Source of the DNA: Motilibacter rhizosphaerae
GTDB taxonomy: Bacteria; Actinomycetota; Actinomycetes; Motilibacterales; Motilibacteraceae
NCBI RefSeq assembly: GCF_004216915.1
Contig: NZ_SGXD01000003.1
Location: forward strand, 752,222-816,221
Direction of reading: 5' to 3'
DNA length: 64,000 bases
Shown here: one piece after another, positions 30,355 to 40,023 of the stretch
Layout: every line of letters begins with the position of its first letter
How positions within the stretch are numbered: position 1 is the first letter of the stretch
Position numbers and translations under genes: made by a program
Notes under the pieces: generated by a model
What the model was told of the DNA's origin: nothing
The model's database searches: none
The model's input: the letters and a program-made list of their open reading frames with translations, nothing else

Positions 30355-30372
30355 GCGGCTCCGCCGCTCAGC
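30350..30372. terminator. Bidirectional terminator overlapping two stop codons
   Basis: A perfect 10-bp stem GCTGAGCGGC / GCCGCTCAGC with a 3-nt loop TCC. The left arm contains the TGA of the plus-strand SHOCT gene and the right arm the TCA (TGA on the minus strand) of the convergent gene, so one palindrome gives both stops and ends both transcripts. Confidence 0.75.
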
Positions 30373-30769
30373 CGCAGAGGTCCCAGCCGGTCGCGTCGCC
30401 GCCGAGCCGCTGGGCGAGACCGGCCATCCGCGTACGCTCCCGGGCCAGCGCCAGCCCGCTCGGCACCTCCACCCGGCTGGCGCGTGCGCCGCCGTCGGTG
30501 GCCACCAGCGCGTACCCCTCCTCCGCGACGACCGCCCGCACCTGCTCGACGGCGGAGGCGTCCGGCAGCAGCAGGTGGTGCCGGACGAGCAGCGGGCGCG
30601 TGACGTCCACCCCGCTCTCGGCCAGGGCGGCGAGGACACCGGAGTCCGAGGCGGCCGGGTCGCTGCTGCCGCCGAGGACGGGGAGCGTCCCGTCGTCGAC
30701 GTACGCCGGCAGCGGCTCCTCCTTGCGGCGACGCAGCAGGGCGCGGGCGCGGTCGCCGAGGGAGGCCAT
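30368..30769 (-). CDS. RraB-like (ribonuclease regulator) family protein
   Basis: A 133-residue protein. Residues about 40-125 resemble the RraB/'regulator of RNase E inhibitor' fold seen in many small actinobacterial proteins: SDSGVLAALAESGVDVTRPLLVRHHLLLPDASAVEQVRAVVAEEGYALVATD, then a segment of GLALARERTRMAGLAQRLGG. ATG 30769 follows a good purine-rich site; the Arg-rich N-terminus (RARALLRRRKEEP) is basic. The RraB assignment is by pattern only; the target ribonuclease and function in this organism are unknown. Confidence 0.6.
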   Translation of the reverse strand: MASLGDRARALLRRRKEEPLPAYVDDGTLPVLGGSSDPAASDSGVLAALAESGVDVTRPLLVRHHLLLPDASAVEQVRAVVAEEGYALVATDGGARASRVEVPSGLALARERTRMAGLAQRLGGDATGWDLCG

Positions 30770-30907
30770 GGCTCCAGCGTGCCAGGGCGGGACGTCGGCT
30801 CCCTCGACGGTTGAGCAACGACTGCTCAGGCGCGGTCCCCCGCGCCGCGGCGAGAGTCGTGGCACAGGCCTCCGACCCGGCGGCCCGCGCCCGATTGGAG
30901 ACCTCCC

Positions 30908-31045
30908 ATGCTCGACCTGCTCGCCGCCCTCGGGACCGGGGGCGTCCTGGCCGCGGCCCTGCGCCACCCGCCGGAGGCCCGCCGGGCGCACCCGGGCTCC
31001 CACGACGTCACGGCGGTCGTCCACCTGCTGGGCGCCTGCCGGTGA
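30908..31045 (+). CDS. 45-residue small protein coupled to the globin gene
   Basis: A short ORF with a good ribosome site (GGAG, 9 nt before the ATG). The protein has a short hydrophobic N-terminus (MLDLLAALGTGGVLAAAL) then HPPEARRAHPGSHDVTAVVHLLGACR. Its TGA overlaps the globin GTG in a GTGA arrangement, so at least it will couple translation to the globin. It may be a leader peptide or a small membrane-associated protein. No homology was recognised. Confidence 0.5.
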   Translation: MLDLLAALGTGGVLAAALRHPPEARRAHPGSHDVTAVVHLLGACR

Positions 31046-31461
31046 CGCCGCACCAGGTCGAGCTCGTCGAGCAGACGATGGAGCGGGCCGCGCAGGACCT
31101 CGACGCCGTCGTCGTCGACTTCTACGACCGGCTCTTCCGCGCCCACCCCGAGGTGCGCGGCATGTTCCCCGAGGACATGGGCGAGCAGCGGCACAAGCTC
31201 GAGGCCATGCTCCGCACGGTCGTCGCGAGCATCCGCGACCACGGCCGCTTCGAGCAGGCCTGCGCCCGCCTCGGTGCCCGCCACGAGGGGTACGGCGCGC
31301 GGGCCGCCCACTACGAGGCGGTGGGGAGCGCGCTGCTCGCCGCTCTCGGGGCCGCCCTGGGCGACGCGTGGCACGAGGAGGAGCGGTGCGCGTGGCAGGC
31401 GGCGCTCGAGCTCGTGAGCGAGGTCATGCAGGGCGGGCAGCGGGCCGCCGTCACGGCATGA
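31042..31461 (+). CDS. Single-domain globin (flavohemoglobin-type haem domain)
   Basis: A 139-residue globin resembling the haem domain of flavohaemoglobins without the reductase. Haem-site residues line up with E. coli Hmp: Tyr28 at B10 (FYDRLFRAHPEVRGMF), Gln49 at E7 (GEQRHKLEAML), and the proximal His81 at F8 (CARLGARHEGYGA). Such globins bind O2 or NO. GTG 31042 overlaps the preceding mini-ORF. The downstream SARP regulator begins 38 bp after the stop (or overlaps it by ATGA at 31458), so a signalling link is suggested. Confidence 0.9.
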   Translation: MTPHQVELVEQTMERAAQDLDAVVVDFYDRLFRAHPEVRGMFPEDMGEQRHKLEAMLRTVVASIRDHGRFEQACARLGARHEGYGARAAHYEAVGSALLAALGAALGDAWHEEERCAWQAALELVSEVMQGGQRAAVTA

Positions 31462-31486
31462 GCCCTCCGCGGGCGCGGCCCGGTGG

Positions 31487-31492
31487 CATCAT
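31487..31492 (+). promoter_or_regulatory. -10-like CATCAT before the SARP-STAND gene
   Basis: CATCAT is 7 nt ahead of ATG 31500, the same layout as before the second citrate synthase. It supports a leaderless start at 31500 in addition to read-through from the globin. Confidence 0.3.
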
Positions 31493-31499
31493 GTGCCGC

Positions 31500-34400
31500 A
31501 TGCGGGGGCAGGCGTCCGGACCCGACTGCCTGGTCCGCGTGCTCGGGCCGGTGTCCGCGGTGGTCGACGGGGAGCCCTGCACCGTGAGCTCGCCCGTGCA
31601 GCGCGCGCTGCTCGCCCTGCTCGCGACCAGCCCCGGTCGGGTCGTGCCCGTCGACCGCCTCATCAGCGAGCTGTGGGCCGAGACGCCCCCGGACTCGGCG
31701 GCCTCGACGGTGCGGGTCTACGTGTCGCGCCTGCGCCGTGCGCTGGGTGACGCCGTCGACGTCGAGGACGGCCCCGGAGCACCCGCGCTGCGGATCCGGC
31801 GGCGGGCGCCGGGCTACCTGCTCGAGCTCCCGGACGGGGCTCTCGACGCGGTGCAGCTGGGACGGCTGCTCGACGCCGCCCGCGGGCGCACCGCGACGGA
31901 CCCGGCAGCGGCCCTGCAGATGCTCGACGAGGGGCTGGCCCTCGTCACCGGTGAGCCGCTCGCCGACGTCGTGCACGTGCTGGGGCCCGTGGGCCAGGCC
32001 GAGGCGCGCCGGCTCTCGGAGCTCGTCCTCACGGCGCAGGAGGCGCGGCTCCAGGCCCTGCTCGCCCTCGGGCGCCCCGCCGACGTCGTCGCCGAGGTGC
32101 AGCGCCTGCTCGCGGCGCACCCGCTGCGCGAGAGCCTGCACGGCCTCGGCATGCTCGCGCTCTACCGCTCCGGGCGCCAGGCCGAGGCGCTCGCGGCGTA
32201 CGAGGCCGTGCGCCGCCTGCTCCTCGAGGACCTCGGCGTGGACCCGGGGACGGCGCTGCGCCGGCTGCACGCGCAGATGCTCGACCAGGACCCCGCGCTG
32301 GAGGCGCCGGCACCGGAGGCTCCGGTCGGCCCTGCGGGCGGCTCGTCGACCGCGGCGGTCGACGGCACCGGGATGATCGGCCGCGCGGAGGCCCTGGCCG
32401 ACCTGCTCGGGGCGCTGCACGCGGCCCGCGCCGGGAGCGGCGGGACGTGGGTCGTCTCGGGCGAGGCCGGCATCGGCAAGACGCGGCTGCTGCAGGAGCT
32501 GGTGCGGGCGGCGGTCGCGGGCGGGACCACGGTCGCCCTCGGGCGGGCCCGGGAGACCGTGGACGCGACGCCGTACTGGCTGTGGGGCCAGGTCTTCCGC
32601 GACCTCCCGGACGTCCCGCGCGACACGGCCCTCGGCGTCCTGCTCGGGGAGGCGGACAGCTCGGCGGCGCTGACGAGGGCGGCGCTGCACGACTCGGTCG
32701 CGCGGTCCCTCGTGCGGCGCGCCCAGGAGGGACCGGTGCTCCTGCTGCTCGAGGACGTCCACTGGGCGGACGAGCCGAGCCTGGCCCTGCTGGCCCTGGT
32801 CGCCGAGCACGCTCCCGCGGTGCCCCTCCTCGTCGTCTGCAGCTTCCGCGTCGAGGACGCGCCGCCCGGCGGGCACGTGGGCGCCCTGCTGGCCCGGCTC
32901 GCGCGCACCCCGGGGGTCGGGCGCACCACGCTGGTCGGCCTCGGGGACGCCGAGACGCGCGACCTGCTCACCGCGCGGCTCGGCCGCCCCCCGAGCGCCG
33001 AGGTCGCGTCCGCCGTCCGCGACCTCACCGCGGGCAACCCCTTCTTCCTGCAGGAGATCGCCCGGCTGGTGCGGGAGTCCGACGACCCCGAGCGCGCGTG
33101 GCGCAGGGTCCCGAGGACGGTGTCCGACGTCCTGCTGCACCGCGTCGCCCGGCTCCCCCGGAACGCCCGGCGGCTGCTCGACGTGGCCTCGGTGCTCGGC
33201 CGCGAGTGCGACCTCGGACTCCTCGAGGACGTGTCCGGCATCGGCGGCGAGGAGGTCGACGAGGGCCTGGCCGCGGCCGTGCAGTCCGGCCTGGTGGCCG
33301 AGGTCGACGGGGTCCGGCCGCTGCTGAGGTTCCCGCACGCCCTGGTCCGGGAGACGCTGTACGCGGAGCTCGGCACCCGGTCGCGCATGCGGCTGCACGC
33401 GGAGGCCGGGCGCGTGCTGGCAGCGCGCCCGGACAGCGACGTCGACGACCTCGCCTGGCACCTGCTCGCGGGCGGTGACCTCGTGGACCGGGAGGTGGCG
33501 GTGGCGGCCGTCGTCGCGGCCGCCGGCCGGGCGATGGGACAGCTCGCGCTCGAGCACGCGCAGGACCTGCTGGACCGCTCCTTGCCGCTGGTCGCCCAGC
33601 TGCCGGCGAGCGAGGCGCGCGAGCGGCTCGAGCTCGCGGTGCAGACGCGCCGCGGCACGGTGCTCGCGACCCGCCTGGGCTTCGCGGCGCCGGAGGCGCG
33701 GGCCGCGCTCGAGCGCGCCCAGGAGCTCGCCCTGCAGCTGGGCACCGGCAGCGACGTGCTCCCGGCGCTCTACCGGCGCTACCTCTGGCTGCTCATGTCC
33801 GGGGACCTCCCCGGCGTCTTCGCCTTCGCCGAGGCCCTGGTCGCCCGCTCCTCCACGCTGGAGGACGTCGCGGCCCGCGACCGGTTCGGCATGCTGGAGC
33901 ACCTCGCCCGCGGCTCGGCGCTGTGGTGCCTTGGGGACGCCGTCGCCGCCGTCCCCGAGCTGAGCCGGGCGCTCGAGCTGGGGGCCAGTTCCCGCGTCGG
34001 CATGCCGGTCGACGCCTTCGGGGACCCCGCCGTCCGGGCCCGGATGTTCCTCTGCCACGCGCTGGCCTCGTGCGGACGGACCGCGGAGGCGAAGGAGGTG
34101 GCCGACCGCATGGTGGGCGAGGCCCACCAGTCCGGTCCCGGTGACGCGAGCGACGCGCTGGCCACGCGCGGCATGATGCACGTCGCGCTCGGGGAGCCGG
34201 AGCACGCGCTCGCCGACGGCGTGGAGGGGCGCCGGCTGGGACGGCTCGCGGGGGCGCCGCTCCTGGAGCTGTTCGCGGCGCTCAACGAGGGATGGGGGGC
34301 CGGCCAGCTCGGCGGCCAGCGGGCGGACGGCGCGGTGGAGATGGTCCGCGCGGCCGTGGCGGGCTACGAGGCCACGGGCACGCACATGCACGACCCGATC

Positions 34401-34553
34401 GTCTACACGATGCTCGCGGAGACCGAGCAGGCCGCCGGCGAGAGCGGACGCGCCGCGGACGCGGCCGCCGCCGGGCTCGCTGCGCTGGCGCGGGCGGGCA
34501 GCCGGCTGTGGCGCGACCGGCTCGAGGCGCTCGCCGGGACGCGCACGACGTAG
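31500..34553 (+). CDS. SARP-type regulator with STAND ATPase and TPR-like domains
   Basis: A very large (about 1017 residues) transcription regulator. Residues about 5-100 form an OmpR-type winged helix (VRVLGPVSAVVDGEPCTVSS ... STVRVYVSRLRRALG), and about 105-260 the BTAD helical domain (RLLAAHPLRESLHGLGMLALYRSGRQAEALAAYEAVRR), together a SARP module. A STAND ATPase follows with Walker A GEAGIGKT at 321-328 and Walker B VLLLLEDVHWADEPS near 415. The C-terminal ~450 residues are TPR-like repeats. Starts at 31458 (ATGA overlap with globin) and 31491 are in frame; 31500 is chosen for the -10-like box. It probably senses a ligand through the repeats and activates a local or distant target. Confidence 0.85.
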   Translation: MRGQASGPDCLVRVLGPVSAVVDGEPCTVSSPVQRALLALLATSPGRVVPVDRLISELWAETPPDSAASTVRVYVSRLRRALGDAVDVEDGPGAPALRIRRRAPGYLLELPDGALDAVQLGRLLDAARGRTATDPAAALQMLDEGLALVTGEPLADVVHVLGPVGQAEARRLSELVLTAQEARLQALLALGRPADVVAEVQRLLAAHPLRESLHGLGMLALYRSGRQAEALAAYEAVRRLLLEDLGVDPGTALRRLHAQMLDQDPALEAPAPEAPVGPAGGSSTAAVDGTGMIGRAEALADLLGALHAARAGSGGTWVVSGEAGIGKTRLLQELVRAAVAGGTTVALGRARETVDATPYWLWGQVFRDLPDVPRDTALGVLLGEADSSAALTRAALHDSVARSLVRRAQEGPVLLLLEDVHWADEPSLALLALVAEHAPAVPLLVVCSFRVEDAPPGGHVGALLARLARTPGVGRTTLVGLGDAETRDLLTARLGRPPSAEVASAVRDLTAGNPFFLQEIARLVRESDDPERAWRRVPRTVSDVLLHRVARLPRNARRLLDVASVLGRECDLGLLEDVSGIGGEEVDEGLAAAVQSGLVAEVDGVRPLLRFPHALVRETLYAELGTRSRMRLHAEAGRVLAARPDSDVDDLAWHLLAGGDLVDREVAVAAVVAAAGRAMGQLALEHAQDLLDRSLPLVAQLPASEARERLELAVQTRRGTVLATRLGFAAPEARAALERAQELALQLGTGSDVLPALYRRYLWLLMSGDLPGVFAFAEALVARSSTLEDVAARDRFGMLEHLARGSALWCLGDAVAAVPELSRALELGASSRVGMPVDAFGDPAVRARMFLCHALASCGRTAEAKEVADRMVGEAHQSGPGDASDALATRGMMHVALGEPEHALADGVEGRRLGRLAGAPLLELFAALNEGWGAGQLGGQRADGAVEMVRAAVAGYEATGTHMHDPIVYTMLAETEQAAGESGRAADAAAAGLAALARAGSRLWRDRLEALAGTRTT

Positions 34554-34660
34554 CCCGCCCCCTGCCTCGTGCCGGTGTTGCGCGGGCGTGCAGGTCCCCG
34601 CAACGCGTGCTCGCCACCGTCGTCACCGGCGTCATCGGGCAGCGGCGGAGGGCGGAGCGG

Positions 34661-35056
34661 ATGAGCGGGTCAGCAGCGGGTCTGCGTCTCGGTGGGGCGA
34701 CGGCGCTCGCCCAGGCCGTGGACGCCCTCTACCGGCAGCTCGTGGACGACCCGGTCCTGCTGCCGGTGTTCGACCAGCCGCACTTCGCGCGGCTGCGCGA
34801 GGTCCTGGTCGACGTGCTGGTCGACGGGCTGGTCGACGGGCTCGTCGACGGGCCGGAGAGGGCACCTGGGAGCACGCGGCCGAGAGCCGACGGCGCGGGC
34901 ACCGGGCTGACCGACGACGCCTTCGACCGCGCCGCCGTGCACCTGCTGACGGTGCTCGAGGCGTTCGCGCCCGACCCTGCCGCAGGGGACGACGCGGCGC
35001 GGCGCCTCGGACCGCTGCGCGCGCAGGCGTGCCCCTCGTACGAGGAGCGGCTGTGA
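34661..35056 (+). CDS. Degenerate truncated-haemoglobin-like protein
   Basis: A 131-residue protein with the group I truncated haemoglobin start (LRLGGATALAQAVDALYRQLVDDPVLLPVFDQP) and the terminal helix pattern (LTDDAFDRAAVHLLTVLEAF). The middle is abnormal: the E-helix is replaced by a 12-bp tandem repeat encoding LVDV-LVDG-LVDG-LVDG, and the segment matching the F8 'AHAGLGIT' reads ADGAGTGLT, so the proximal His is missing. Haem binding by the usual residue is therefore doubtful. ATG 34661 has GGCGGAG upstream. The stop overlaps the next regulator's GTG by 4 bp. Confidence 0.65.
   Translation: MSGSAAGLRLGGATALAQAVDALYRQLVDDPVLLPVFDQPHFARLREVLVDVLVDGLVDGLVDGPERAPGSTRPRADGAGTGLTDDAFDRAAVHLLTVLEAFAPDPAAGDDAARRLGPLRAQACPSYEERL
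34805..34852 (+). repeat. 12-bp tandem repeat inside the truncated-haemoglobin-like gene
   Basis: Four units of CTGGTCGACG(G/T)G (CTCGTC in the last) start at 34805, 34817, 34829 and 34841. They encode Leu-Val-Asp-Gly/Val four times in the place of the globin E-helix. In-frame units mean that expansion or contraction would not break the gene. Confidence 0.85.
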
Positions 35057-37767
35057 GGACGCGACCGGCCGGAGCCCCCCAGGACCCCACGCGGGGCGCC
35101 GACGCCTCCTTCCTGCTGCGCACGCTGGCGGCGCACTGGCCCCTGGTCGGGCGGCAGGCCGAGCTCGAGGTCGCCATGGACGCGCTCGCCGACCCCCGCG
35201 TGCGCGTCAACGTCGCCGTCGGGCTCCCGGGGACCGGCAAGACCCGCTTCGCCGAGGAGGTCCTGGCCCTCGCCGGGGGCCGGGGCCACCCGGTGGCCCG
35301 CGTGACGGCCAGCCCCGGCTCCCGCGAGGTCCCGCTCAGTGCGCTCGCGCACCTCGCGCCCGCTCCGGCGGGCACCGGCGCGGACCCGCTCCAGGTGCAC
35401 CGCGCCGCCGCCGCCCACGCCCGGCAGCGGGTCCGCGCCGCCCAGGGCCGCCGTCTCGTCGTCCTCGTCGACGACCTCCACCTGCTCGACGCGGCGTCGC
35501 TCGCGGTGCTCACCCGGCTGCTCGACGACGGCCTGGCCTTCGTGCTCGGGACGGTCCGGTCCGGGGAGCCCCGGGACCCCGCGCTGCAGGCCCTCGTGCA
35601 CGGGGACTCGGCGCTGCTCACGGAGATCGGCGACCTCGGCAGGGCTGCCTCGCGGACGCTGCTCCACCTGGCCCTGCGCGGACCGGTCGAGGCCGGGACG
35701 GTGGAGGACCTGTGGGCGGCGAGCCTCGGCAACCCGTTCTACCTGCGCGAGCTCGTGCTCCACGGCATACGGACCGGTTCGCTGGTGCAGACGGCCGGGG
35801 TGTGGCGCGCGACCGGCCGGCTCGCCGCCCCCGCGCGGCTGACCGAGCTCATGCGGCTGCGCCTCGACGGCATGCCCGCGGCCGAGCGGGCGGTCCTGGA
35901 CCTGCTCGCCGTCCAGGACGGCCTGTCCCCCGACGACGTGCTCGCCCTGGCAGGCACGCCCGACCACGTCGGTGCGGCGCTGGAGTCGCTGGAGCGCAGC
36001 GGCCTCATCCGCTCCGAGCTGCAGCAGCGCCGGGTGGTGCTGCACCTCGCGCACCCGGTCTACGCGGACACGCTGCGCGCGACGACCTCGGAGCTCACGG
36101 CGCGGCGGCTCGGCACGGCGCTGGCGCGGCGCATCCAGGCGCTCGGCGCCCGCCGCCCGGACGACCCGGTCCGCGTCGCCGGCCTCCTGCTCGACGCCAC
36201 GGGGACGGCCGACCCGCACCTGCTGCTGGAGGCGGCACGGCTCGCGCGCGCCGCTCACGACCTGGACGGCGTGGCCCGCTTCGCGGGGGCGGCGCTCGCG
36301 CACGGCGACCTCGGCGAGGCGGCGCTGCTGCTCGGTGGGGCGCTGTACGAGTTGGGACGGTTCGCCGAGGCCGACGACGCCCTGCTCCGTGCGCAGCGGA
36401 CGTCCACGAGCGAGGCGCAGACCGTCGACATGGTGCAGGTGCGCGCGCGGCTGCTCCTCTTCGGCCGGGTCCAGCCCGACGACGCGCTCGACGTGGTGCG
36501 CTCCGCAGCGGCCGGCGTGCGGGGCCCCGGCCTCGCGGACGAGCTGCGCGCGCTGGAGGCGGCCGTCCTCGTCCAGGCGGGCAGGCCGGGGGACGCCCTG
36601 CCCCTGGCGCAGGAGCTCTCCTCGGCGGCGCGCTCGCCCCGGGCCGCCGTGCTGGCCGGCCTCGCGCACGCCGCCGCGCTGACCTTGACCGGGGACCCCG
36701 CCGCCGCGCTGGCGCAGGCCCGCCGCGGCTACGCCGAGCACCAGCGGCTCGGCGACCTGCCCGCCCTCCACCCGTCGCTGCACCAGGCCGAGGAGGTCCT
36801 GGCGCTGCAGGAGGCCGGCCGTCTCGCCGCGGCGCGCGAGGTGGGCGAGCGCGCCTACGCCGGCGCCACCGCCGACCGGGCACCGTTCGCCCGGCTGCGC
36901 CTCGCGCGCCTGCTGGGCCGCGGCGCCGTGCTCGAGGGTGCTCCGCGCACCGCCCTGCGCTGGTACCTCGAGGCGCTCTCGCTCTGCCGGGCGTACGGCT
37001 TCGACGGGCCACGCCGCGTCGTGCTCGACCACCTGGCCGTGGCGCACGCGCTGCTCGGGGACCCGCGCGCGGCCGAGGCGGCGCTGGCGGAGCGCGACTC
37101 GCTGCCGACCCAGTTGCAGCCCTACCCCGAGCAGGCCCTGGGGAGCGCCTGGGCCTCCGCCGCGGCGGCCGACCTCCCCGGCGCCCGCCGCACCGTCGAG
37201 CTCGCGGTCGCGTGCGCGGCACGGACGGGCGACGTGAGCTCGGAGCGCCGGCTGCTGCACGACCTCGCCCGCCTGGGGGCTCCGGCCGAGGCTGCCACCC
37301 GGCTGCTCGAGCTGCAGAGCCGGGGCGACAGCGCCCTGGCCACCGCGTACCTGCTCAGCGCCACGGCGCTGCAGTCGCGGTCGGCTCCGGCCCTGCGCGA
37401 GGCGGCCGAGGCCTTCGAGGAGCTCGGCGCGCGGCTGTACGCGGCGGAGGCCTGGACGTCGGCCGGCGTCGAGCACCGTCGGGCCGGCCAGCCGCGGGAG
37501 GCGGCCTGGGCGGTGACGCGTGCAGCTCGCGCGCTCGAGCACTGCGAGGGGGCTCGCACCCCGCTGCTGCTCGTCGCCGACAGCCACGTGCCCCTGACGG
37601 CGCGGGAGCGCGAGGTGGCCCTGCTGGCCGCCCGCGGCCGCCCGAGCCGGGAGATCGCCGAGCAGCTGTGCCTGTCGGTGCGCACGGTGGACAACCACCT
37701 CCAGAACGTCTACGGCAAGCTCGGCATCAAGGGCAGGGCGGACATCGGCGCCGCGCTCGCCCGCTGA
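35053..37767 (+). CDS. LuxR-family STAND ATPase regulator
   Basis: A 904-residue regulator of the LAL/MalT-like class. Walker A is GLPGTGKT at residues 57-64 after WPLVGRQAELEVAMDAL, and Walker B is RLVVLVDDLHLLDAAS near 138. Residues about 350-830 are TPR-like helical repeats. The C-terminal LuxR HTH is PLTAREREVALLAARGRPSR then SVRTVDNHLQNVYGKLG. Such proteins act as ligand-gated activators. GTG 35053 overlaps the truncated-haemoglobin-like gene's stop (GTGA), so the pair is translationally coupled; the mirror image of the globin-SARP pair directly upstream. A strong terminator follows. Confidence 0.88.
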   Translation: MRTRPAGAPQDPTRGADASFLLRTLAAHWPLVGRQAELEVAMDALADPRVRVNVAVGLPGTGKTRFAEEVLALAGGRGHPVARVTASPGSREVPLSALAHLAPAPAGTGADPLQVHRAAAAHARQRVRAAQGRRLVVLVDDLHLLDAASLAVLTRLLDDGLAFVLGTVRSGEPRDPALQALVHGDSALLTEIGDLGRAASRTLLHLALRGPVEAGTVEDLWAASLGNPFYLRELVLHGIRTGSLVQTAGVWRATGRLAAPARLTELMRLRLDGMPAAERAVLDLLAVQDGLSPDDVLALAGTPDHVGAALESLERSGLIRSELQQRRVVLHLAHPVYADTLRATTSELTARRLGTALARRIQALGARRPDDPVRVAGLLLDATGTADPHLLLEAARLARAAHDLDGVARFAGAALAHGDLGEAALLLGGALYELGRFAEADDALLRAQRTSTSEAQTVDMVQVRARLLLFGRVQPDDALDVVRSAAAGVRGPGLADELRALEAAVLVQAGRPGDALPLAQELSSAARSPRAAVLAGLAHAAALTLTGDPAAALAQARRGYAEHQRLGDLPALHPSLHQAEEVLALQEAGRLAAAREVGERAYAGATADRAPFARLRLARLLGRGAVLEGAPRTALRWYLEALSLCRAYGFDGPRRVVLDHLAVAHALLGDPRAAEAALAERDSLPTQLQPYPEQALGSAWASAAAADLPGARRTVELAVACAARTGDVSSERRLLHDLARLGAPAEAATRLLELQSRGDSALATAYLLSATALQSRSAPALREAAEAFEELGARLYAAEAWTSAGVEHRRAGQPREAAWAVTRAARALEHCEGARTPLLLVADSHVPLTAREREVALLAARGRPSREIAEQLCLSVRTVDNHLQNVYGKLGIKGRADIGAALAR

Positions 37768-37867: not shown

Positions 37868-39916
37868 TCAGGCCTCGGTCTTGGTGTCACCCTCCGCACT
37901 GCTGAAGTCGGTGACCTTGTTGGTGCCCGCGCCCCCGCGGAAGACGTCCGCTCCCGTCCCGCCGGTCAGGGTGTCGTCGCCGGCACCGCCGGAGACCAGG
38001 TCGTCGCCGCCCGCGCCGCGCAGCGTGTCGTTGCCGCCCTGCCCGAACAGGACGTCGGGGAGCTCGGTGCCGTTGAGCGTGCCGGCGCCGTTCCCGTCCA
38101 CCTGCACCCGCACGGACAGGCTGGCCACGACGGCCGTGCCGGACCGGACCCAGACGGTGATGGTCGCCGTGCCGGTCCTCCCCGCGACCGTGCGCAGGCT
38201 CATCGTCCGGTCGGACTGCTGGCCGCCGAACGTGATCGCGCTGGACGGCAGCAGATCGCCGTCGTCCGAGGTGGCGCTGAGGCTGAGGGTGCCGAGGTCG
38301 GTGTCGGCGTCGGCGAGCCGCAGCCCGACCGTCGCGCTGTGCCCGTCCGCGCCGAGGCTCCCGCCGTGCACGGCGATGGTGGTCGGGGCCTCCACCTGCA
38401 GCGTCACCGTCGCCGGGTCGGACGCCCAGATGCTGTGCAGCGCGCGGTAGGTGAAGGAGTCGCGGCCGTGGAACCCCGGGTCCGGCGTGTAGGTGAACCC
38501 CCCGTCGGAGCCCAGGGTGAGGTGGCCGTGCGCGGGCTGGGAGGCCGGGTACGCCGTCAGCACGTCGCCCTGGGCGTCCTTGTCGTTGGCGAGGACACCC
38601 GGCGCGGCAATGCTCAGCGTCCTGCCCTGGCCCGTGGCGTACGCGTCGGCGCCCGCCGTCGGGATCCGCGACGCGACCACCGTCATGGACACGGTGGCGG
38701 GCGGCGTGGGCACGCCGTAGAGGTCGGACGCCTGGTAGGTGAACGTGTCGGTGCCGACGAAGCCCGCGGCCGCGACGTACGAGAACGAGCCGTCCGGGCG
38801 GAAGGTCAACTGGCCGTGCTGCGGTCCCGCGACCAGGCGGGCCCCCGTGAGCGGGCGGCCGGCGGGGTCCCGGTCGTTGGCGAGCACGCCGTACGCCGCT
38901 GGCTCGGCCTTCGGCCCGACGTTCGTCGTCTTGTAGGCGTCCGGCGTCGCCGTCGCCCGCACCGGGATGGTGGGGACGCCCGCGACCGCGATGTCGTTCG
39001 CCTCCGTCCAGCCGAGGCCGGGGAGCACGTCCTGCTGCGTGTGGTGCACCAGGTCGAGCCGCACGATGACGAGCGGTCCCTCCGACACCTCGCTGCGCTC
39101 GCTCGAGACGAGCCGTCCGTCGGCCTCGACGGCCAGTCCCTGGCTCTCCTGCATCTCGCCGCCGGTCATCAGCACGGTGACGCCGCCGTTGTCCGGGCGC
39201 ACCGCCACGAGCTGGCGCTCGCCGGTCGACTGCTTGGCGGTACGGGCGAGGATCGTCCCGTCCTTCGCCAGGGCGATGCTCTCGAACCTGGTGTCCGCCA
39301 GGTTCGCGACGACGTCGGGCGCGGACGCCCCCGGGGCGAGGCGCCAGAGCAGGCCGGCGGTGGTGCCGAGGATCCCGCCCTGGCTGTCGACCGCGAGGTC
39401 GGAGGCGTAGTCGAGCCACGAGTGCTGGAGGAGCGTCTCCTCTGCGCCGTCCGGGGTCTGGCGCACCAGGACCGCGTCGCCGTAGCGGTTGTTGACCACC
39501 GCGAGCAGTCGTCCCTGGGCGTCGGACGTGATGGCGGACACGCCGTCGCTCGCCCCTTCCGCGACGAGCACCCGCTTGCGCTGCCCGGTCACGTGGTCGA
39601 CGAGGTACACGTCCCCGTAGAGCAGCCCGACGTACAGGTCCCCGGAGGGCGTCACCGCTTCGCGGGTGGCGGCGGCGTTGATCCAGAGGGTGTGGGCGCG
39701 GCGCCGGTCGCCCGTGCCGGGACTGATCGCGTCGATGCCGGAGCCGCCGTCGAAGAAGCCGCCGAAGGTGGGGACGAGCAGGTCGCCCGCCTGCCAGGGC
39801 GCTGTCTGGGCGGCCGCGGTACCCGCGTCGACCCCGAGCGCCGCGGTGGCGAGCAGGCAGCCGATGGCGGCGAGACCGGCGGTACGGCGGAGGCGACCAG
39901 GAGTGGAGGGGGGCAT
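37868..39916 (-). CDS. Secreted propeller protein with cadherin-like and RTX repeats
   Basis: A 682-residue exported protein. The signal peptide is RRTAGLAAIGCLLATAALGVDAGTAAAQ. Residues about 40-310 look like a beta-propeller (DLYVGLLYGDVYLVDHVTG, DGRLVSSERSEV). Two Ig/cadherin-like repeats follow (about 325-410 and 420-510), each with NDRDP / NDKDAQGD calcium-type loops and DTFTYQA or DSFTYRA ends. The C-terminus (about 615-670) has RTX nonapeptides (GGNDTL, GGDDLV, GAGDDTLTGGTGADVF), calcium-binding repeats usual in type I secreted proteins, yet here with a Sec signal and no type I exporter genes nearby. The function is probably adhesive; I cannot say more. Confidence 0.8.
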   Translation of the reverse strand: MPPSTPGRLRRTAGLAAIGCLLATAALGVDAGTAAAQTAPWQAGDLLVPTFGGFFDGGSGIDAISPGTGDRRRAHTLWINAAATREAVTPSGDLYVGLLYGDVYLVDHVTGQRKRVLVAEGASDGVSAITSDAQGRLLAVVNNRYGDAVLVRQTPDGAEETLLQHSWLDYASDLAVDSQGGILGTTAGLLWRLAPGASAPDVVANLADTRFESIALAKDGTILARTAKQSTGERQLVAVRPDNGGVTVLMTGGEMQESQGLAVEADGRLVSSERSEVSEGPLVIVRLDLVHHTQQDVLPGLGWTEANDIAVAGVPTIPVRATATPDAYKTTNVGPKAEPAAYGVLANDRDPAGRPLTGARLVAGPQHGQLTFRPDGSFSYVAAAGFVGTDTFTYQASDLYGVPTPPATVSMTVVASRIPTAGADAYATGQGRTLSIAAPGVLANDKDAQGDVLTAYPASQPAHGHLTLGSDGGFTYTPDPGFHGRDSFTYRALHSIWASDPATVTLQVEAPTTIAVHGGSLGADGHSATVGLRLADADTDLGTLSLSATSDDGDLLPSSAITFGGQQSDRTMSLRTVAGRTGTATITVWVRSGTAVVASLSVRVQVDGNGAGTLNGTELPDVLFGQGGNDTLRGAGGDDLVSGGAGDDTLTGGTGADVFRGGAGTNKVTDFSSAEGDTKTEA

Positions 39917-40023
39917 GAGGACCGCTTTCTGCGTGGGAGGAGCCCTTGCGCTCCTTCATGTCCTCGAGACTCGCTGGCCAGGATCCCCTGCGCCTGAGTA
40001 GGTGCTGCTCAACCGCAGAGGGA

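Follow-up and report, generated by a model that had tools for sequence, protein, structure and literature searches.

MalT and the LAL regulators combine in one chain a nucleoside triphosphatase (NTPase) domain, a superhelical TPR sensor and a C-terminal GerE helix-turn-helix (HTH). MalT uses repeated asymmetric boxes. Here we analysed a LuxR-type regulator of the same build (LuxR-STAND) that lies in a putative operon with two globin genes and a SARP-type regulator (SARP-STAND), in a window of 64,000 nucleotides (G000:C3:752222-816221) within the 4.3 Mb genome of the actinobacterium Motilibacter rhizosphaerae. Unlike the MalT boxes, the candidate operator of this locus, TGAGYA-N5-TRCTCA, is palindromic. 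MalT is held inactive, in the adenosine diphosphate (ADP) state, by the partner proteins MalY, Aes and MalK (PMC10427625, PMC6468293), whereas in our case the putative partner is a haem globin whose gene usually adjoins that of the STAND. All our evidence is computational. The reading that we reached, and hold at about even confidence, is that the locus forms a local regulon round a MalT-type LuxR-STAND activator, in which a haem globin is a co-evolved member, most likely feeding back on the STAND.

Several other described systems resemble parts of this locus. Stand-alone H-NOX proteins act in trans on adjacent signalling proteins such as kinases (PMC8738867), and as in the pairs of H-NOX with a histidine kinase or cyclase, a small haem-protein gene here adjoins the gene of a signalling partner. 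However, the haem protein of our locus has the globin fold, its partner is a STAND transcription factor and not a kinase or cyclase, and its action in trans is proposed by analogy. Globin-coupled sensors also link a globin to a regulatory output, but they do so in one polypeptide and with a globin of the S lineage (PMC1457004, PMC4648194), whereas the chains in our locus are separate and the globins are flavohaemoglobin-like or truncated. The SARP-STAND shares the domain order Trans_reg_C, BTAD and AAA_16 with AfsR/PimR-type regulators; these have no known globin link, and PimR binds heptameric direct repeats (PMC5930380), unlike the palindrome of this locus. Finally, the first globin of the operon resembles Vitreoscilla/Campylobacter-type single-domain (SD) globins in sequence family, haem pocket residues and lack of a reductase domain, but belongs to a separate clade tied to STAND regulators. 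The initial annotation of the window knew of no described system of this form, and a literature search, in which subscription journals were poorly covered, likewise found no published description of a globin/LuxR-STAND module.

Every gene of the initial annotation was located at its proposed place, including the SARP-STAND of 1017 and the LuxR-STAND of 904 amino acids (aa). The five genes follow each other on one strand:

30908..31045, + strand: mini-ORF (short open reading frame, ORF), 45 aa, the first reading frame 3' of candidate operator 1
31042..31461, + strand: globin 1 (P0001), 139 aa, a single-domain 3/3 globin with intact haem pocket residues
31500..34553, + strand: SARP-STAND (P0008), 1017 aa from the ATG, with Trans_reg_C, BTAD, AAA_16 and a C-terminal region
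34661..35056, + strand: globin 2, 131 aa, a degenerate group-1 truncated globin without F8 His
35053..37767, + strand: LuxR-STAND or LAL (P0003), 904 aa, with NTPase, winged helix, TPR superhelix and GerE/LuxR HTH

The stop of the mini-ORF overlaps the start of globin 1 in a 4-base GTGA, and the previously noted GTGA overlap at the junction of globin 2 and the LuxR-STAND (-4 bp) was also found. Globin 1 is separated from the SARP-STAND by 38 bp, and an alternative start of the latter lies at 31491. The genes from the mini-ORF to the LuxR-STAND would form one transcript. Scans for sigma-70 promoters and terminators gave no match, and such scans are uninformative at this GC content.

Globin 1 matches PF00042 with 61 bits against a cutoff of 22, stands alone without a FAD/NAD domain and has 3wfw as its nearest solved relative. 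Its alignment to flavohaemoglobin identified F42 (CD1), Y28 (B10), Q49 (E7), H81 (F8) and Y91 (G5), in agreement with the intact B10 Tyr, E7 Gln and F8 His reported before. By these sequence criteria, globin 1 is a flavohaemoglobin-type SD globin (M lineage) with a predicted intact haem pocket. The LuxR-STAND contains AAA_16 and GerE domains and combines an NTPase with Walker A and B motifs, a superhelical repeat sensor and a C-terminal GerE HTH. Its structural model shows the order NTPase, winged-helix domain, TPR and HTH; the top match in the PDB is a TPR-sensor STAND, and MalT is also among the matches.

Globin 2 scores 20.2 bits against PF01152, for which the cutoff is 21, and by Foldseek its model resembles M. 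tuberculosis trHbN (probability 1.00, TM-score about 0.62). In this model, with a mean pLDDT of 73.7, the truncated-globin helices are kept apart from a disordered F region. The F8 His is replaced in globin 2 and retained in the paired truncated globins of genomes G002, G004 and G048. In addition, the E-F region contains an expanded short repeat:

34805..34853, + strand: 12-bp tandem repeat, CTGGTCGACGGG x4.1, inside globin 2

In line with the initial annotation, globin 2 looks like a decayed group-1 truncated globin that is predicted to be haem-free; it may be a decaying second partner or a haem-free adaptor. The idea of two copies of the same layout, in contrast, did not stand. One unit contains a 3/3 single-domain and the other a 2/2 truncated globin, thus members of different families, the second without F8 His, and the two STANDs carry different DNA-binding heads.

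To assess recurrence, we searched 395 genomes of the class, which gave about 100 LuxR-STAND homologues, and scanned their flanks for globins. The congener G001 has a LuxR-STAND and, 4 bp after it, an SD globin, each with 51% identity to its counterpart in the window (globin 1 for the latter). In G012 the LuxR-STAND overlaps an SD globin. The same STANDs have truncated instead of SD globins in G002 and G004, where these lie upstream, and in G048, where the two genes are tail to tail. The flank scans added G110, G288 and two mycobacterium-like trHbO loci that fall outside the clade defined below. A further pair, from another class of the phylum (G601), was a candidate of a phylum-wide globin search and was later confirmed, and an Acidimicrobiales metagenome-assembled genome (MAG) displays the order SD globin, LuxR-STAND, SD globin, with the first globin frameshifted. 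The STAND overlaps the globin by 4 bp in G012 and L216, as does the globin the STAND in the window; elsewhere the genes are 4-118 bp apart or tail to tail. Globins and STANDs occupy separate reading frames in every pair read. Overall, 10 of the 21 members of one supported STAND clade adjoin a globin, spread over actinobacterial families and two classes. Outside this clade a globin was found beside 2 of about 85 LuxR-STANDs, and a simple chance expectation is 0.1-0.3 adjacent pairs per ~100. Since family-level searches for more copies gave no further globin pair, the distribution is patchy, mostly with one genome per family.

The STAND trees placed all globin-adjacent members, with the exception of the mycobacterium-like pair, in one clade with local support of 98-99, and this clustering on the tree was not reached by chance (0 of 500 shuffles gave a value as low). 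Because SD globins stand beside the deepest STAND branches (G601, L216/G012) and beside L074 (G288), an SD globin was likely the ancestral partner of the LuxR-STAND of this clade. In the window and in the group of G002, G004 and G048 its place is taken by truncated globins, and two subclades lost the globin. The paired SD globins form a clade of their own (support 91/96), all of them without a reductase domain. Seven of its nine members adjoin a LuxR-STAND or share its operon; this count includes globin 1 of the window, where the SARP-STAND and globin 2 lie between it and the LuxR-STAND. The globins diverge in step with the STANDs (Mantel r 0.80, 4 of 720 permutations). F8 His is retained in 9/9 of these globins, and B10/E7 drift in two. 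Given this clade and its co-divergence with the STANDs, globin 1, as judged from the trees, belongs with the LuxR-STAND by ancestry.

Next, we turned to the candidate operator. It was found by comparing the regions upstream of the mini-ORF in the window and of its homologue in G001, which share TGAGCA-N5-TGCTCA, and was then generalised to the degenerate form. As this consensus was widened after variants had been seen in the same loci, its counts are somewhat favoured; the exact form TGAGCA-N5-TGCTCA is restricted in the same way. Two sites lie in the window, the second before a secreted-protein gene:

30812..30828, no strand: candidate operator 1, perfect palindrome TGAGCA-ACGAC-TGCTCA, 79 bp 5' of the mini-ORF and 213 bp 5' of globin 1
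37868..39916, - strand: secreted Big_9/cadherin and RTX calcium-binding repeat protein, a candidate target, convergent to the operon
39995..40011, no strand: candidate operator 2, TGAGTA-GGTGC-TGCTCA, 79 bp 5' of the RTX/cadherin gene

No site was detected in the 1.19 Mb of the host genome scanned outside the window (the scan covered 29% of the genome), in 29 SARP-STAND loci or in 43 flavohaemoglobin loci. The 20 clade loci (0.18 Mb) contain 17 sites, with some redundancy: one site is common to two loci, and L053 and L054 are orthologous. A set with less redundancy had 15 sites, versus none in 60 Markov simulations. In most paired loci a site stands before a globin, STAND or secreted-protein gene, also as the exact form. 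At 30-125 bp, sites precede the SD globins of G110, G601 and G001b, the truncated globins of G002 and G004, the second globin of G012, secreted peptidase-S9-like genes in G001, G002 and G004, and a secreted-protein gene at the head of the L216 cluster; the G001 orthologue of the RTX/cadherin gene (L052 2013-4070) has its own palindrome. G288 has a site 401 bp 5' of the STAND, and G048 only weaker sites (2-mismatch), before the STAND and the truncated globin. LuxR-STAND relatives without a globin displayed 11 sites in 0.58 Mb, none of them within a predicted gene. As these relatives carry it too, the palindrome tracks the LuxR-STAND and not the globin or the SARP-STAND. The latter is further disfavoured as the binder because SARP-LAL regulators such as PimR target heptameric direct repeats (PMC5930380). 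The LuxR-STAND is thus the likely protein to bind the palindrome, which may serve a much larger LuxR-STAND family.

We propose a mechanism that starts from what was observed, namely domain content, recurrence, clade-level linkage, co-divergence and the palindrome with its locus specificity. The LuxR-STAND would bind TGAGYA-N5-TRCTCA and drive the operon of mini-ORF, SD globin, SARP-STAND, truncated globin and LuxR-STAND, hence its own gene, as well as the neighbouring RTX/cadherin gene. Depending on its bound gas or oxidation state, the haem globin would bind the NTPase or the TPR sensor of the STAND and hold or release its ADP-bound resting state. The working haem partner in the window would be globin 1, with globin 2 in the decayed or adaptor role, and the SARP-STAND would have entered the operon later, adding a second output. 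We infer the globin-STAND contact, the ligand (oxygen (O2), nitric oxide (NO) or redox) and the sign of the effect; that the globin reports a gas or redox state to the STAND is proposed by analogy to the systems above. Such feedback is favoured because the globins form a co-diverging clade, their genes overlap those of the STANDs, one globin type is exchanged for another, a reductase is lacking and F8 His is conserved. Somewhat more tentatively, and short of even confidence, we suggest a so far undescribed class of two-protein gas/redox switches: a dedicated clade of haem globins would provide, in trans, the allosteric input of a LuxR-STAND that has a palindromic operator of its own and controls secreted calcium-binding/cadherin-like proteins. 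The globin could be exchanged for one of another fold or, in the case of the window, be accompanied by a second one that acts as a haem-free adaptor.

Some observations weigh against a globin that feeds back on the STAND. A Streptomyces-like subclade has no nearby globin, and some of its loci keep the palindrome, which indicates that the globin is not obligatory. Two of the pairs are convergent and therefore cannot share a transcript, no palindrome was found beside the G012 pair itself, and globin 2 overlaps the STAND gene yet has lost the haem ligand. Moreover, the palindrome stands directly before the globins of G110, G601, G001b and G012b, two of which are not beside a STAND. This points to the globin as a target of the regulator, either in addition or exclusively, and makes a pure output role a serious rival. 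The LuxR-STAND would then sense something else via its TPR and switch on the haem globin, for O2 supply or for protection from NO or peroxide, together with the secreted proteins and without protein contact. SD globins such as that of Campylobacter do act in NO detoxification (PMC1457004), and STAND relatives occur without an adjacent globin. On the other hand, a mere output is disfavoured by the dedicated co-diverging globin clade, by STAND-globin gene overlaps, by an unrelated globin type swapped in at the same place, by a locus without a reductase partner and by a haemless truncated globin retained in the window. We consider this explanation possible but leaning to the doubtful side, and continue to prefer feedback of the globin on the STAND.

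The initial annotation had paired each globin with the regulator downstream of it and named the recurrence of such pairs in other genomes as a check. For the LuxR-STAND they do recur, far above chance and across swapped globin types and gene orders. For the SARP-STAND they do not within the class: among its 30 nearest homologues in the 395 genomes, only that of the window has a globin beside it (0/29 others). The SARP-STAND was therefore rejected as a general globin partner and is, on this comparison, a local and later addition to the operon. Two independent switches side by side, with globin 1 driving the SARP-STAND and globin 2 the LuxR-STAND, would fit the gene order of the window and its tight spacing (38 bp and -4 bp), and a Deinococcus plasmid and an Anaerolineaceae MAG each have an SD globin tail to tail with a SARP-type STAND. 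However, the relatives of globin 1 adjoin LuxR-STANDs, and the Deinococcus and Anaerolineaceae globins belong to an SD-globin group different from the clade of the window; these SARP-type pairs may be parallel cases or chance. Together with the missing recurrence, this renders two equivalent units unlikely. A neighbourhood by chance or joint transfer, without functional link, could draw on the patchy distribution and on globins and STANDs both being common, but it is largely refuted and very improbable in view of the clustering on the STAND tree, the proximity kept through globin-type swaps and order changes, and a palindrome common to the globin and neighbouring genes.

For most LuxR-STAND (LAL) regulators no input is known, and this module brings together, within a single small locus, candidates for a globin partner, for an operator and for targets close by. 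Should the globin act on the STAND in trans, this would be, to the extent of our search, the first case of a STAND ATPase gated by a globin, and the concept of trans-acting haem sensors would reach beyond H-NOX to ordinary globins. With the globin as a mere output, TGAGYA-N5-TRCTCA would still offer a handle on the regulons of these orphan regulators, which form a large family.

Further observations concern the relatives and neighbours of these genes. The pair on the Deinococcus plasmid (L274 3986-8085) has a BTAD-AAA_16-TPR regulator at 95 bp from the globin, and that in the Anaerolineaceae MAG (L223 643-5217) a BTAD-protein kinase-NB-ARC-TPR regulator at 12 bp. The globin-less relatives with a palindrome in nearby intergenic DNA are found at L068, L088, L089, L111, L114, L147, L157 and L280. 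For LuxR-STAND relatives on Streptomyces plasmids no globin is annotated, and plasmids were dropped as carriers of the module. The mycobacterium-like loci, which lie outside the clade and lack the palindrome, were set aside; in these (L118 1557-5797, L122 806-5099) the LuxR-STAND lies between a catalase-like gene and the trHbO gene. The secreted peptidase-S9-like proteins with the palindrome in their promoters (L052 15319-16677, L053 12132-13487) measure about 450 aa, and the gene is divergent from the globin in G001. The STAND/truncated globin pair of G048 is flanked by two secreted proteins, one of them of the Big_9/cadherin type (L058 647-3046 and 6368-8236), comparable to the RTX/cadherin protein of the window. 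The G001 homologue of the mini-ORF (L052 11421-11555) encodes 44 aa with 40% identity and has the same palindrome 83 bp upstream. It is not beside a globin, so that the mini-ORF is coupled to a globin in the window only; L255 has an unrelated 50-aa ORF at a similar place. In the window, an RraB-family gene (30368-30769) is divergent from the operon and starts 43 bp from operator 1, with which it may share control.

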